Of a DNA stretch of 34,257 nucleotides, positions 909 through 5,886 are shown one piece after another. Both the position numbers and the translations under genes were made by a program. Source of the stretch: Ectothiorhodospiraceae bacterium (lineage in GTDB: Bacteria > Pseudomonadota > Gammaproteobacteria > Nitrococcales > Aquisalimonadaceae); the NCBI GenBank assembly GCA_003565775.1, contig PXAT01000074.1, positions 1 to 34,257 on the forward strand. The letters are read 5' to 3'. Under the pieces are notes generated by a model. That model saw only the letters and a list, made by a program, of their open reading frames with translations. It was not told the DNA's origin and did not search any database. Positions within the stretch are counted from its first letter, which is position 1, and every line of letters starts with the position of its first letter.

Positions 909-925
909 ATTACATACCCTGTCAG
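909..925 (-). promoter_or_regulatory. Candidate TetR operator at the tetR start
   Basis: The sequence ATTACATACCCTGTCAG starts 3 bases upstream of the tetR start codon. Aligned without gaps to the palindrome at 1206-1222, it shares 11 of 12 bases in the core TACATwCCCTGT. Its symmetry is weaker than in the distal copy, with half-sites ATTACA and TGTCAG around TACCC. It overlaps a possible -10 element on the minus strand, so binding would block tetR transcription. The shared core is seen directly; its role as an operator is inference. Confidence 0.55.
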
Positions 926-1185
926 TGTCCTGCTCGGGAGCCGCAGGTGACCGTCCGGCACCGGGCGGCACCCATAGTAGTGCGTTGACCAACGCCGGGG
1001 TCCCTGCCGCAGCCGGGTCCGGCACTGAAAAGCCGGCAAAGGCGCCTGATGCGGCACGCGGGCCGACAGCTGTCACTCTGTCGCGTCAGGGTATCACCCC
1101 CGTGATTCCGGCGCGGCGCATCCAGTGACGAATATTCGGCGTACAGCATCATCAGGCACGACCCGCAGCCGGTCAGCAGCACGTA

Positions 1186-1213
1186 TTGCGGGACACGTCA
1201 ATTCATGTACATT
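1186..1213 (+). promoter_or_regulatory. Possible sigma-70 promoter of the lipid operon
   Basis: TTGCGG at 1186-1191 and TACATT at 1208-1213 are separated by 16 bases. Each matches the consensus only partly. The -10 hexamer lies inside the palindrome at 1206-1222, the arrangement expected for repression by occlusion. The rest of the 341-base gap between tetR and the operon shows nothing else I can name. Confidence 0.3.
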
Positions 1214-1222
1214 CCCTGTACA
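1206..1222 (+). promoter_or_regulatory. Palindromic operator before the lipid operon
   Basis: Two TGTACA hexamers lie 11 bases apart (1206-1211 and 1217-1222) around TTCCC. Each hexamer is its own complement, so the site is both an inverted and a direct repeat. Its core recurs at the start of the divergent tetR gene, which makes the TetR protein the first candidate binder. Tandem 11-bp spacing with a TACA core also resembles sites bound by the MerR-family B12 photoreceptors CarH/LitR, but no such gene is in the window. Confidence 0.6.
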
Positions 1223-1247: not shown

Positions 1248-2570
1248 ATGCGCATAGCGGTTGTCGGCGGTGGGGTCTCGGGCCTCGGTGCGGCGTGGCT
1301 TCTCAGCCAGCGCCACGACGTGACTCTGTTCGAAGCAAACGCCTATGTCGGCGGTCACACCAATACCGTGGATGCCCCCGGCCCGGACGGCAGCCAGATC
1401 CCGATTGATACCGGCTTCATCGTGTTCAACGAACGCAATTATCCACATCTGACCGGTCTGCTCGGGACACTCGGTGTGGCGACGCGCGAAAGCGACATGT
1501 CGTTCGGTTTCACCGATCGCCGGTCGGGGCTGGAATGGGCCGGCGACAATCTCAACACCCTGTTCGCGCAGCGGCGGAATCTGTTCAACCCCCGGTTTCT
1601 CGCCATGATCCGGGATATCCTGCGCTTCAACCGTGCCGGCAAACGATTCCTGACCGACGAGAGCGGCCCCGGGAACATGTCGCTCGGGGAGTTTCTGGAT
1701 CGAATCGGTACCGGAGAGGCTGTGCGCCGGCGCTATCTTCTGCCCATGGCGGCCGCGATCTGGTCCTGCCCGCCGGAGACCATGCTGGACTTCCCGGCGC
1801 ACCGCTTCCTGCGCTTTTTCGACAACCACGGACTGATCGACCTGAGCAATCGCCCGGTATGGCAGACTGTCCTGCATGGTGGCCGCGAATACGTCCGCAA
1901 GATGCTGCCCGATGTCAGCGGACCGGTGCATACCGACACGCCGGTGCGCCGGGTTTGCCGGCGGCAGGATACGGTCGTCCTGCGTGGTGATCAGGGCGAA
2001 CTCGGGGAATTCGATCATGTGGTCATCGCCAGCCACGCGGATCAGACCCTGGCGATGCTCGAACAGCCCAATGCCCGGGAAGCAGAGCTGCTCGGCAGCA
2101 TCCGCTATCAGCGCAACGAGGCCTGGCTGCACCGGGATCGGAAGTTGATGCCGCGCTCGCGACGGGTCTGGTCATCCTGGAACTACCTCGCCGGCAATGA
2201 TCAGCACCATGCCTGCGTCAGCTACTGGATGAACCGTCTCCAGCACCTGCCGACCACAGAGGACTGGTTCGTGACCCTAAACCCACCGGAACCGCCGGCG
2301 CCGGAGACGGTCTTTCGTCGCATGACCTACGATCATCCGGTGTTCGACACCGCAGCCATGCAGGCCCAGACCCGATTGCACGAAGTGCAGGGGCGGGACC
2401 GTGTCTGGTTCTGCGGTAGTTACTGTGGCTACGGCTTTCACGAGGACGGGCTGCGCTCGGCGGTCGACGTCGCCGCCGCGTTCGACATTGCACCGCCCTG
2501 GGAAGACCGGTACGACCCGGCCACTGCCGGCACGGCACAACCGGCCGAATACGGTCTGCAGGCCTCCTGA
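1248..2570 (+). CDS. FAD-dependent oxidoreductase, flavin amine-oxidase type (COG2907-like)
   Basis: A 440-residue flavoprotein. The N-terminus MRIAVVGGGVSGLGAAWLL is a Rossmann FAD-binding motif, followed by the acidic residue ending strand two (LFEAN) and the VGGHTNT motif of this family. The C-terminal FAD-contact region includes VWFCGSYCGYGFHEDGLRSA. I chose the ATG at 1248 because it sits directly before the nucleotide-binding motif; the same frame stays open upstream to 1125, but those residues look non-coding. Members of this family are found next to DUF1365 and cfa genes and are usually annotated as cyclopropane or unsaturated fatty-acid modification proteins; relatives act in furan fatty acid synthesis in Rhodobacter. 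The substrate here is probably a membrane lipid acyl chain, which is inference. It is the first gene of a four-gene operon, and the next gene starts 3 bases after its stop. Confidence 0.88.
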   Translation: MRIAVVGGGVSGLGAAWLLSQRHDVTLFEANAYVGGHTNTVDAPGPDGSQIPIDTGFIVFNERNYPHLTGLLGTLGVATRESDMSFGFTDRRSGLEWAGDNLNTLFAQRRNLFNPRFLAMIRDILRFNRAGKRFLTDESGPGNMSLGEFLDRIGTGEAVRRRYLLPMAAAIWSCPPETMLDFPAHRFLRFFDNHGLIDLSNRPVWQTVLHGGREYVRKMLPDVSGPVHTDTPVRRVCRRQDTVVLRGDQGELGEFDHVVIASHADQTLAMLEQPNAREAELLGSIRYQRNEAWLHRDRKLMPRSRRVWSSWNYLAGNDQHHACVSYWMNRLQHLPTTEDWFVTLNPPEPPAPETVFRRMTYDHPVFDTAAMQAQTRLHEVQGRDRVWFCGSYCGYGFHEDGLRSAVDVAAAFDIAPPWEDRYDPATAGTAQPAEYGLQAS

Positions 2571-2573
2571 GCC

Positions 2574-3332
2574 ATGCCCATCGCGATCTATAGCGGCAGC
2601 GTCATGCACCGCCGGTTGGTGCCGCCACTGTTCCGGTTCCGCTATCGGCACTTCGGCCTGCTGCTCGATCTCGACCGGCTGGCGTCCGACACCGCCGGCC
2701 TGCGGCTGCTGTCGCGTAATCGCTTCAACCTGTTTTCCTTCCACGACCGCGACCACGGTCCGCGCACCGGTGAACCGCTGCGGCCCTGGATCGACGGCGT
2801 CCTGCATCAGGCAGGCATCGATCTGCGCGGCGGTCATGTCCGGTTGCTGTGCATGCCGCGCGTCTTCGGCTACGGCTTCAACCCGCTCAGCACCTGGTAC
2901 TGCCATGCCGCCGACGGCAGCCTGCTGGCCGTGCTCTGCGAGGTCCGCAACACCTTCGGCGAAAGTCACGGCTACCTGCTGCATCAGAACGGTCAGCCGC
3001 TGGCGGACACGGTCCGCTCGGAGACCGCGAAACAGTTTCACGTCTCGCCGTTCTTTCCGGTAGACGGACATTACCGCTTCCACATCCGGCCACCGGCGGA
3101 GACGCTCGGGATCGGCATCCAGCTGATCCGGAATGGTCGCGTGCAATTGATCGCCGGACAGTATGGGCGACGCCGGTTGCTGACCGACCGGGCCCTGCTC
3201 GGGCTCGCGCTGCGCTATCCGTTCGGTGCACTGAAAGTGATGGCCGCCATTCACTGGCAGGCGCTGAAGCTCTGGCTCAGAGGCGCCCGCTACCATGCGA
3301 AACCGCAACCCCCGCAACAGGAGATCACCTGA
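2574..3332 (+). CDS. DUF1365 family protein (COG3496)
   Basis: A 252-residue protein beginning MPIAIYSGSVMHRRLVPPLFRFRYRHFGLLLDLDRL, the recognisable opening of the DUF1365 family. Other conserved stretches are RNRFNLFSFHDRDHG, MPRVFGYGFNPLSTWYC and FHVSPFFPVDGHYRF. No signal peptide is visible; a hydrophobic stretch near residues 205-225 could be a weak membrane contact. The biochemical function of the family is not established. It nearly always sits between a COG2907 oxidoreductase and a cfa-type methyltransferase, as here, so a role in acyl-chain modification is likely. Its TGA overlaps the ATG of the next gene by one base (TGATG), indicating translational coupling. Confidence 0.88.
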   Translation: MPIAIYSGSVMHRRLVPPLFRFRYRHFGLLLDLDRLASDTAGLRLLSRNRFNLFSFHDRDHGPRTGEPLRPWIDGVLHQAGIDLRGGHVRLLCMPRVFGYGFNPLSTWYCHAADGSLLAVLCEVRNTFGESHGYLLHQNGQPLADTVRSETAKQFHVSPFFPVDGHYRFHIRPPAETLGIGIQLIRNGRVQLIAGQYGRRRLLTDRALLGLALRYPFGALKVMAAIHWQALKLWLRGARYHAKPQPPQQEIT

Positions 3333-4570
3333 TGGATGGCGAGCGCACCGCGCAGCGCGAACAACTGCAGCTCAGCCCCCCGCGCAGCTGGGCCGGACGG
3401 CTGGTCAACCGCATCCTGTCACGGATCGAGCACGGTGAAGTGGAAGTGCGCATGGGCGACGGCAGCCTCTGCCTGCACCGGGGGAAAACGGCCGGCCCGC
3501 GCGCGAAGATCATGGTGCATCGACCCGGTCGTCTGATCTGGCGACTGGCGACCAGTGGCGGACTGGGGCTCGACGACGCATTTCTCGCCGGAGACTGGGA
3601 AACCGATCAGCTGTCCGACTTCCTCACCCTGATGGCGGCCAACGAGCACGCCTTCGGGCGGCTCGGCGAGCCCCGCCTGCTGACGCGCATCGTCACCGGG
3701 CTCGCCCACCGCCGGCGGCGCAACACGAAACGCGGCAGTCGCCGCAACATCGCCGCGCATTACGACATCGGCAACAGCTTTTACAACGAGTGGCTGGACC
3801 CGGGCATGACCTACTCCGCGGCGCTGTTCGAGCGTCAGGACGAGGATCTGGAGCGTGCGCAGCAGCGCAAGTACGACGCCATCCTCGATCGACTGGACCT
3901 GCAGCCGGATCAGCATATCCTCGAGATAGGCTGTGGCTGGGGCGGGCTGGCCGAGTCGGCCGCCCGACGCGGCGCCCGCGTCACCGCCATCACTCTCTCC
4001 CGCGAACAGCTCGCCTTCGCGCGCGAACGGATCGACCGGGCCGGCCTCGGCGAACGCGTCGACCTGCGCCTGCAGGACTACCGCGACGTCCGGGGTCAGT
4101 TCGACCACGTGGTCTCGATCGAGATGTTCGAGGCGGTCGGCCAGGACTACTGGCAGACCTTCTTCCAGTGCGTCAAGGAACGCCTGAAACCCGGCGGCCG
4201 GGCGGCGCTGCAGATCATCACCATGGATGCCGAGTACTTCCAGCGCTACCGGCTGAATCCGGATTTCATCCAGCGCTACATTTTCCCGGGCGGCATGCTG
4301 CCGACAGTGCAGGAACTGCGCGATATCGTGCAGCGCCTGGGGCTGGATCTGGCCGAAACCCAGTTTCACGGTCAGCAATACGCGACCACGCTGAATCGCT
4401 GGCATGAGCGCTTCAACACCGCCTGGCATCAGATTCAGCACATGGGGTTTGACGAACGCTTCCAGCGCATGTGGCGCTATTACCTGGCGTATTGCGAAGC
4501 CGGATTCCGTACCGGTCGCATAGACCTGATGCAGACCGCCCTGATCAGCACGTCGGATCGGCAACCTTGA
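3332..4570 (+). CDS. cfa: Cyclopropane-fatty-acyl-phospholipid synthase family methyltransferase
   Basis: A 412-residue SAM-dependent methyltransferase; E. coli Cfa has 382 residues. The N-terminal third is the family's lipid-binding region. YDIGNSFYNEWLDPGMTYSAALF is the conserved entry to the catalytic domain, and ILEIGCGWGGLAESAARRGA is the SAM-binding glycine loop, followed by VSIEMFEAVGQDYW. The start ATG overlaps the previous stop codon and has an AGGAG sequence 8 bases upstream (3319-3323). The enzyme would transfer a methyl or methylene group from SAM to a cis double bond of membrane phospholipids. Homologs include true cyclopropane synthases and methylases such as UfaM of furan fatty acid synthesis, and the sequence alone does not separate them. 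The operon partners favour something beyond plain cyclopropanation. Confidence 0.9.
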   Translation: MDGERTAQREQLQLSPPRSWAGRLVNRILSRIEHGEVEVRMGDGSLCLHRGKTAGPRAKIMVHRPGRLIWRLATSGGLGLDDAFLAGDWETDQLSDFLTLMAANEHAFGRLGEPRLLTRIVTGLAHRRRRNTKRGSRRNIAAHYDIGNSFYNEWLDPGMTYSAALFERQDEDLERAQQRKYDAILDRLDLQPDQHILEIGCGWGGLAESAARRGARVTAITLSREQLAFARERIDRAGLGERVDLRLQDYRDVRGQFDHVVSIEMFEAVGQDYWQTFFQCVKERLKPGGRAALQIITMDAEYFQRYRLNPDFIQRYIFPGGMLPTVQELRDIVQRLGLDLAETQFHGQQYATTLNRWHERFNTAWHQIQHMGFDERFQRMWRYYLAYCEAGFRTGRIDLMQTALISTSDRQP

Positions 4571-5886
4571 CTGCCCCGGCCCGGGTCTCCCGCGGCACGG
4601 TTTTCTTCTACGGTCTGCCGGGCCTGCCACTGGCGGTGCTGGGCATCCCGCTGTACGTCTTCCTGCCGCCGTTCTATGCCGAAACCGTGGGTATCGCCGC
4701 CGTCGGCATCCTGCTTCTGGCCGCGCGTCTGTGGGATGTGGTGACCGACCCGCTGGTCGGTGCCCTCGGCGACCGGATCGACACCCGCCTCGGCCGGCGC
4801 AAGACGCTGATCCTGATCGGCACCCCCCTGTTGCTGTTGTCGGTGGATCAGTTGTTCCGGCCACCGGACGGGGCCGGCATGCTGCACCTGCTGGGCTGGA
4901 GCTTTCTGGTCTACCTGGCCTGGACCCTGGTCTCGCTGCCCTACACCGCCTGGGGAGCAGAACTGTCGCGCAACTATGATCAGCGTTCCAGCATTACCGG
5001 CAGCCGGGAAGGCTTCGTCATCGTCGGCATGCTGCTGGCCATTGTGCTCCCGGCCGTCATGGTGCCCGACGGTAGCCCCGGCGAGGCCCTGGCCTGGCTG
5101 GCCGGCATGCTGTGGATCAGTGTGCCGCTGGCGATCGGCGCCGCCCTGCTACTGGTACCCGAGCCACGCAATCTGCTGCCGCCGGTGCCCTGGCGCGACG
5201 GCGTCCGGCTGTTACGTGAGAACAAGCCCTTCTTCCGCCTGCTGATTGCCTACATCCTCAACGGCCTGGCCAACGCCCTGCCCGCGACCCTTTTCCTGCT
5301 GTTCGCGCAGCACGTGCTGGTGGCCGAGGACTGGGCCGGAGCCATGCTGATCACCTATTTTGCCGCCGGCCTGCTGGGTATTCCCTTGTGGCTCTGGCTG
5401 TCGCGCCGTATCGGCAAGCACCGGGCGTGGGCCTGCTCCATGCTCTGGGCCGCCGCAATCTTTGTCTGGGTGCCGTTTCTCGGTGAGGGCGACGCCTGGC
5501 TGTTCCTGATCATCTGCCTCTTCTCCGGTCTCAGCCTGGGCATCGACATGGCCCTGCCGGCCTCGATCCAGGCCGATCTGGTCGACCGGGATACCGCGCG
5601 CGGTGGTGGTCAGCGCACCGGCCTGTTCTTCGGTCTCTGGGGCATGGCGACGAAACTGGCACTGGCGCTGGCCGTGGGCCTGGCGTTCCCGTTGCTGGCG
5701 CTGAGCGGCTTCGACGCCTCGGACAGCAACCCCGACGGCCTGCTGGCGCTCGGCCTGCTCTACGGACTGGCGCCGATTCCGTTCAAGCTCGCGGCGGTCT
5801 GGCTGATGTGGGGCTTTCCGGTGGATCGCGGCACTCAGCTTGCCTGGCAGAAACAGGTACGGGATCTCGAGCGGCAGCGAGACTGA
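4567..5886 (+). CDS. MFS transporter of the MFS_2/GPH type
   Basis: A 439-residue membrane protein with about twelve hydrophobic segments. The motif DVVTDPLVGALGDRIDTRLGRRKTLILIGTP between the second and third helices is typical of the glycoside-pentoside-hexuronide cation symporter (MFS_2) branch. The most plausible start is TTG at 4567, overlapping the cfa stop codon (TTGA); an in-frame ATG at 4471 would overlap cfa by 100 bases and add a hydrophilic tail. As last gene of the lipid operon it may move a lipid, lysolipid or sugar. Mammalian MFSD2A of the same superfamily branch carries lysophospholipids, but that parallel is inference. A terminator follows at 5922-5949. Confidence 0.85.
   Translation: MTAPARVSRGTVFFYGLPGLPLAVLGIPLYVFLPPFYAETVGIAAVGILLLAARLWDVVTDPLVGALGDRIDTRLGRRKTLILIGTPLLLLSVDQLFRPPDGAGMLHLLGWSFLVYLAWTLVSLPYTAWGAELSRNYDQRSSITGSREGFVIVGMLLAIVLPAVMVPDGSPGEALAWLAGMLWISVPLAIGAALLLVPEPRNLLPPVPWRDGVRLLRENKPFFRLLIAYILNGLANALPATLFLLFAQHVLVAEDWAGAMLITYFAAGLLGIPLWLWLSRRIGKHRAWACSMLWAAAIFVWVPFLGEGDAWLFLIICLFSGLSLGIDMALPASIQADLVDRDTARGGGQRTGLFFGLWGMATKLALALAVGLAFPLLALSGFDASDSNPDGLLALGLLYGLAPIPFKLAAVWLMWGFPVDRGTQLAWQKQVRDLERQRD

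Follow-up and report, generated by a model that had tools for sequence, protein, structure and literature searches.

A conserved tandem TGTACA site upstream of a ufa-like lipid operon points to a LitR/CarH-family repressor rather than to the divergent TetR

When a regulator gene stands divergently beside an operon, is it the regulator of that operon? The question is raised by the window, by which we mean the whole stretch of 34,257 nucleotides analysed here (contig PXAT01000074.1 of an Ectothiorhodospiraceae bacterium), whose own genome, G000, is a draft assembly of 3.2 Mb. Near its start a tetR-family gene faces a set of lipid-modifying genes, and the original prediction held that TetR binds two similar sites between them, one on either side, and so represses both itself and the operon.

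Genes of the window

The tetR-family gene lies on the minus strand (307-906, GTG start at 904-906), and its product has PF00440 (TetR_N) as sole Pfam match; the nearest named relatives within the genome collection belong to an Ectothiorhodospiraceae MAG (83% TetR identity) and then to Methylonatrum kenyense (81%). Divergent from it, on the plus strand, the four genes of the predicted membrane-lipid operon match, by Pfam, an FAD amine-oxidase-fold protein (1248-2570; PF01593 and PF13450), a DUF1365 protein (2574-3332; PF07103, E 3.7e-82), a SAM-dependent methyltransferase of the CMAS family (3332-4570; PF02353, E 7.7e-92), which does not reach the NCBIfam cut-offs of the Cfa models it matches best, and an MFS_2 transporter (4567-5886; PF13347, E 4.4e-83). 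According to the available part of PMC7380195, UfaM, UfaO and UfaD of R. palustris are RPA2569, RPA2570 and RPA2571, and the UfaO of R. sphaeroides carries DUF1365. Because of this domain and of a gene order like RPA2571-2570-2569, the operon at 1248-5886 was read as ufa-like, its first gene being named ufaD by gene order and the next two ufaO and ufaM (cfa-like). The likeness to the Rhodopseudomonas and Rhodobacter UfaD-UfaO-UfaM lies in the DUF1365 protein, the methyltransferase and that order; families and order fit, which makes this a candidate ufa operon. The operon thus looks like ufaD-ufaO-ufaM, presumably making furan fatty acids, with a transporter added. In R. sphaeroides the furan fatty acid product rises without ChrR (PMC7380195, available part), whereas the window operon has a LitR-type promoter site.

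The end of another contig of the same assembly (G000:C87:8350-8460, L260) repeats the window start, with 1-101 identical and 183-420 at 97.5%, so that C87, which by eye carries trpG, trpE and gph, probably adjoins the window.

Two similar sequences between tetR and ufaD

The 12-mers TACATACCCTGT (911-922, plus strand) and TACATTCCCTGT (1208-1219, plus strand) are identical at 11 of 12 bases, and the common TACATwCCCTGT was found where the original prediction had placed it; TACATNCCCTGT occurs at only these two places in the whole draft genome. Both sites had been called palindromic. This holds for the operon-side site at 1206-1222 (TGTACATTCCCTGTACA, plus strand), a perfect TGTACA-N5-TGTACA whose units at 1206-1211 and 1217-1222 form an exact repeat 11 bp apart and which we propose as a LitR site; it does not hold for the tetR-side resemblance at 909-925 (ATTACATACCCTGTCAG, no strand assigned), a poor palindrome in which, by eye, the outer six bases pair at four of six positions. 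The latter is adjacent to the tetR start codon rather than on it, as had been claimed, being placed three bases upstream of the GTG and over the likely Shine-Dalgarno sequence. Matrix scores were 22.4 for 1206-1222, -0.1 for 909-925 (1.9 in reverse) and 8.3 for 898-914, a weak repeat TGTACT-N5-ATTACA that overlaps 909-925. When 881-1250 was shuffled with dinucleotides preserved, some 12-mer pair of at least 11/12 appeared in 274 of 1000 shuffles; with 1206-1222 held fixed, a second 11/12 match arose in 6 of 1500 shuffles of 881-1205, which argues that the resemblance is not trivially chance. The significance is therefore mixed, and the likeness of the two sites is neither compelling nor plainly accidental.

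The promoter was assigned by eye because the promoter pattern scan gave no sigma-70 consensus match. The likely -10, TACATT (1208-1213, plus strand), lies inside the operon-side site, just as the prediction of a site over a candidate -10 had it. Upstream of it, across a 16-bp spacer, a possible -35 (TTGCGG, 1186-1191, plus strand) matches the consensus weakly; its counterpart in the congeners G009 and G010 is TTGCAG.

Conservation upstream of ufaD

Conservation in relatives that keep the tetR-ufaD pair had been named as a check on the TetR reading. The two congeners that keep this pair, G009 and G010, both have the operon-side site, and the tetR-side site is lost from both. For this reason 909-925 was rejected as an equal operator; it may instead reflect the Shine-Dalgarno overlap or the weak LitR-like repeat at 898-914. 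A third congener (G011) has no TetR match and a best ufaD-upstream score of 9/12. The operon-side site is also present upstream of ufaD in other genomes of the same family, and in G012, G013 and G018, which lack a TetR ortholog at the thresholds applied (the only TetR matches they do have are 24-42% identical, along the full query or part of it). In 13 genomes of genus g15 that have TetR and lack the MerR-type regulator LitR, unit 2 matches at 0-2 of 6 bases, three of these genomes reaching 9/12 in a shifted register. From this pattern of sequence conservation, 1206-1222 is probably a conserved repressor-type site over the likely -10.

A regulator might be dispensed with altogether if the conserved bases were simply a TACAAT-like promoter -10, and indeed most of the g15 genomes lacking LitR, where unit 2 is lost, still have a TGTA(C/G)AAT-like half. 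However, unit 2 is kept in many genomes with LitR, beyond what a -10 explains, and the two-unit site recurs upstream of litR-phr, folE and pyp, so we give a bare -10 hardly any credence.

In G006 and G008 the site is set farther upstream, the place beside the ufaD start codon being taken by a different repeat; downstream of the ufa genes, these two genomes and G011 have a CarH-like gene that carries the B12 motif Wx9EH, and in all three the ufaD start has repeats of another kind nearby, which counts against the LitR reading. TTGTCC(A/T)GGACAA-like repeats occur near the ufaD start at three loci (L178, L179 and L180) from genomes with such a downstream gene, and are a possible operator of the B12-motif CarH class.

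Co-occurrence of the site with LitR and with TetR

Among the 54 genomes of the order, LitR was detected in 26 (E <=1e-12), ufaD in 41 and TetR in 27 (E <=1e-30), or 28 when G004 is scored as TetR-positive from a contig-end fragment; one g15 genome (G045) has no ufaD match and is outside the 41. A ufaD-upstream score of at least 10/12 was reached in 16 of 26 LitR-positive and 0 of 15 LitR-negative genomes (Fisher 5e-5), and a score of at least 9/12 in 21 of 26 and 3 of 15 (p 2e-4), p values that are optimistic and overstate independence, since the 15 LitR-negative genomes with ufaD come from two genera (g13 and g15). Sorted by TetR, the same counts were 11/28 with and 5/13 without it at the higher threshold (p 1.0), and 17/28 and 7/13 at the lower (p 0.74).

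The genome-wide search with TRTACAWYNNNNRTACA, counted on both strands so that symmetric sites count twice, returned 51 hits in the 26 LitR-positive genomes (19/26 with a hit) and 2 hits in the 28 LitR-negative ones (2/28 with a hit); the backward-pattern control gave 3 hits in all 54. Hits were also commoner per Mb in TetR-positive than in TetR-negative genomes (0.51 vs 0.17; 40 hits in 28 genomes and 13 in 26), because most of them fall in genomes with both regulators: within the LitR-positive set there were 39 hits in 15 TetR-positive and 12 in 11 TetR-negative genomes, and within the LitR-negative set 1 hit in 13 TetR-positive genomes. Some results run counter to the association with LitR, as 10 of the 26 LitR-positive genomes score below 10 at ufaD, among them G021-G024 with 6-8, even though in these four litR comes after the ufa genes. 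In G003, G005 and G007, moreover, numerous additional matches to the pattern have no assigned target.

These distributions bear directly on the divergent TetR as owner of both sites. In its favour, the divergent tetR-ufaD arrangement is found in the genus of the window and in others, a symmetric pair of TGTACA units would be a fitting target for a TetR dimer, and, given the operon-side site, the tetR-side likeness is as rare as the 6 in 1500 shuffles above. The tetR-side loss in G009 and G010 speaks against it, as do the operon-side site in G012, G013 and G018 and its decay in the 13 TetR-positive, LitR-negative genomes, although the TetRs of the latter have an altered recognition helix; a site of the same kind moreover stands upstream of litR-phr, folE and pyp. 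TetR ownership of 1206-1222 was accordingly abandoned, the site being found without TetR, decayed where TetR occurs without LitR, and tracking LitR; together with the TetR motif described next, we consider it very unlikely that the divergent TetR binds both sites and represses itself and the operon. The locus shows that the regulator gene next door is not always a safe guide when an operator is assigned.

A different motif upstream of distant tetR genes

Distant TetR loci were collected with peptide patterns including NAAIHYHF, and all 76 have this helix, which is partly a consequence of the selection. In 63 of the 75 loci counted (L023 being too short), CTTACT-N4-AGTAAG stands close upstream of tetR, compared with 24 of 1500 shuffles; the 12 loci without it have the same helix. 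This conserved palindrome is a probable self-operator of this TetR subfamily, and its presence in place of the paired sites at orthologs with the same helix told further against the proposed TetR pair. These loci (L019-L094) include Chloroflexota, relatives of Chromobacterium and Bacteroidota. The helix NAAIHYHF is present in 5 of the 27 TetR loci of the order of the window, window included; at no locus of these 27 does a match of at least 10/12 to CTTACT-N4-AGTAAG lie upstream of tetR, and the window has no near match.

TetR could still act close by, or elsewhere in the genome, while LitR acts at 1206-1222, an arrangement compatible with LitR as owner of that site. The tetR-ufaD neighbourhood persists, even with a gene inserted in family f4 (a MoCF_biosynth domain protein, as checked in G037 only), and four g2 genomes (L006-L009) share a block, ACAGGATACGACA, at 12-13 of 13 between tetR and ufaD, which in those genomes is possibly a TetR site or the tetR promoter. 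On the other side, ACAGGATACGACA is not beyond chance in the window, G009, G010 and G007, where the best matches of 7-9 of 13 were equalled by 81-200 of 200 shuffles, and nothing like CTTACT-N4-AGTAAG was seen in the window, nor at 10/12 or better in the 27 loci of the order. We hold such a second, TetR-bound place to be a tentative possibility, at somewhat less than even odds.

Architecture of the site and known LitR and CarH operators

A profile was built from 47 sites of related genomes, comprising sites of at least 9/12 from LitR-positive genomes and five pyp sites, 14 of the 47 being near-identical litR sites. In both units it is chiefly positions 1-2 that vary. Among the imperfect sites, all 38 retain ACA in unit 1, where conservation is confounded with the -10, and 31 retain it in unit 2; TGT survives in 10 (unit 1) and 20 (unit 2). 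Retention of ACA over TGT argues for head-to-tail TnnACA units and not for the two-fold symmetry expected of a TetR dimer. The window has no clear third LitR unit, only two full ones; a possible third unit is seen at some sites, such as those of G013 and G018.

CarH operators consist of tandem 11-bp repeats nnnnTnnACAn (PMC9304148, PMC8156234, available parts), and the tandem 11-bp TnnACA arrangement is found in the window, with TGTACA at 1206 and 1217. The CarH operators of Thermus, Bacillus and Myxococcales share with it the overlap of the repeats with promoter elements; they usually have three or more repeats and serve B12-dependent proteins (PMC9304148, available part), whereas the window has two clear repeats and the G000 LitR is without Wx9EH. 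T(G/A)TACA units are a pointer to class II LitR. PMC9758184, as far as its available part goes, describes the binding of TGTACA-N12-TGTACA by P. mendocina PmlR2, a class II LitR, and gives the consensus T(G/A)TACA-N12-TGTA(C/T)A for P. putida PplR1; in P. mendocina, phr, folE, ufaM and a gene for an FAD oxidoreductase are located in the class II LitR regions, and a short LOV protein strips class II LitR from DNA in the light. With this Pseudomonas system G000 shares a MerR-type regulator devoid of B12 motifs, T(G/A)TACA half-sites, the association with phr, folE, ufaM and FAD oxidoreductase genes, and a short LOV gene in the genome. It differs in that the units of the window site are 11 bp apart (N5), not 18 (N12), that the LOV gene of G000 is on another contig and not beside litR, and that the operon additionally holds DUF1365 and MFS_2 transporter genes. 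The findings suggest class II LitR sites whose 11-bp spacing is like that of CarH operators.

A further likeness is that of V. cholerae, in which the MerR-like VCA0056 is needed for the blue-light response and its gene is predicted to share an operon with the photolyase gene phr; the available text gives no operator for the MerR-like protein (PMC5241685), whereas one is proposed here.

LitR, a short LOV protein and the proposed mechanism

The litR gene of G000 lies on contig C65 (7664-8578; MerR_1, E 1.2e-18) beside a photolyase gene. As a further likeness to CarH, the profile of 12 LitR sequences (G000 and 11 relatives) matches CarH 5c8d over the long stretch of positions 2-268 (E 1.7e-33). 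In the alignment the G000 LitR is without the Wx9EH motif, no Pfam B12 domain was found at E 0.001, and PF02607 stayed below its cut-off (E 0.0075). The motifs of B12 binding include a B12 histidine besides Wx9EH. With B12-binding residues missing from the G000 LitR, light is probably relayed by a partner, e.g. a short LOV protein; contig C129 (8485-8943) encodes one of 152 aa that has the LOV cysteine motif.

We put at roughly four in five the probability that 1206-1222 is the operator of a class II LitR/CarH-family (MerR-type) repressor, with binding, repression and light response predicted from sequence. The support consists of sequence conservation, co-occurrence and family membership. The likely regulator would be the C65 LitR encoded with the photolyase. 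Bound to the two head-to-tail TnnACA units, it would cover the -10-like TACATT and keep the ufaD-ufaO-ufaM-transporter operon off in the dark; light would then lift the repression, perhaps through the short LOV protein at C129 as a presumed partner. On this proposal the lipid-modifying operon moves from a supposed TetR circuit to a probable light-response regulon with DNA-repair and folate genes. Apart from PMC9758184, the listed titles and abstract beginnings held no link between LitR and furan fatty acids.

Other genes of the putative regulon

In some relatives the same kind of site is found before DNA-repair, folate and photoactive-yellow-protein genes. GATACA-N5-T(G/A)TACA (at least 9/12) was found upstream of litR-phr in 14 of the 15 loci examined, which cover 15 of the 26 LitR genomes; G000 scores 9/12, and the fifteenth locus, of G031, scores 7. 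Sites of at least 11/12 lie upstream of folE in G000, G003, G004, G007, G012, G018 and G052, those of the relatives having come through motif-search hits and not from an unbiased sample. Within G000, sites with at most one mismatch number three (ufaD, folE and one on contig C93), and when up to two mismatches are allowed the count does not rise above background (32 vs 29 in the control). The C93 site (G000:C93:10698-10714, TATACA-N5-TGTACA) lies 578 bp upstream of a NUDIX-like gene by eye and has no clear target; on checking, no tRNA was found near it.

Exact TGTACA-N5-TGTACA also stands upstream of a second, distant CMAS-family methyltransferase gene in G007 (L118:422-1504) and G003 (L134:401-1507). 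Three 11-bp-spaced units (L116:1490-1517, G004) precede a gene for a PAS-domain protein. Upstream of LOV genes the best motif scores were just 6-9 of 12.

Photoactive yellow protein genes

In 5 of 7 genomes (L341-L345), T(G/A)TACA-N5-T(G/A)TACA precedes the best pyp copy; the 17-mer scores 11-12 of 12 and begins 81-92 bp ahead of the pyp ATG. The best copies in G026 and G023 are without the site (scores 7 and 6), and the second pyp copy has the operator in 0 of 5 cases. For comparison, loci of the family of the pyp genomes were cut into 893 tiles of 150 bp, of which 8, the pyp sites included, reach 11. Genus g9 is represented by nine genomes; LitR, ufaD and pyp occur together in seven of them, and in the other two, G019 and G020, none of the three was found at the thresholds used.

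In Halorhodospira-like bacteria, photoactive yellow protein (PYP) may belong to the LitR regulon and act there as a light-driven anti-repressor of class II LitR in place of LOV, a proposal that we rate as unlikely and whose anti-repressor step is pure hypothesis. If true, it would give PYP a signalling partner, which the available part of PMC13250908 calls unidentified, and would offer a direct test of how this much-studied photoreceptor signals. No link between LitR and PYP appeared in the titles and abstract beginnings of the matches listed, and MerR, LitR, CarH and promoter are absent from the available main text of a 2025 paper on the pyp operon (PMC12826048). The genes that follow pyp at one locus (L319) resemble, by eye, genes of chromophore synthesis.
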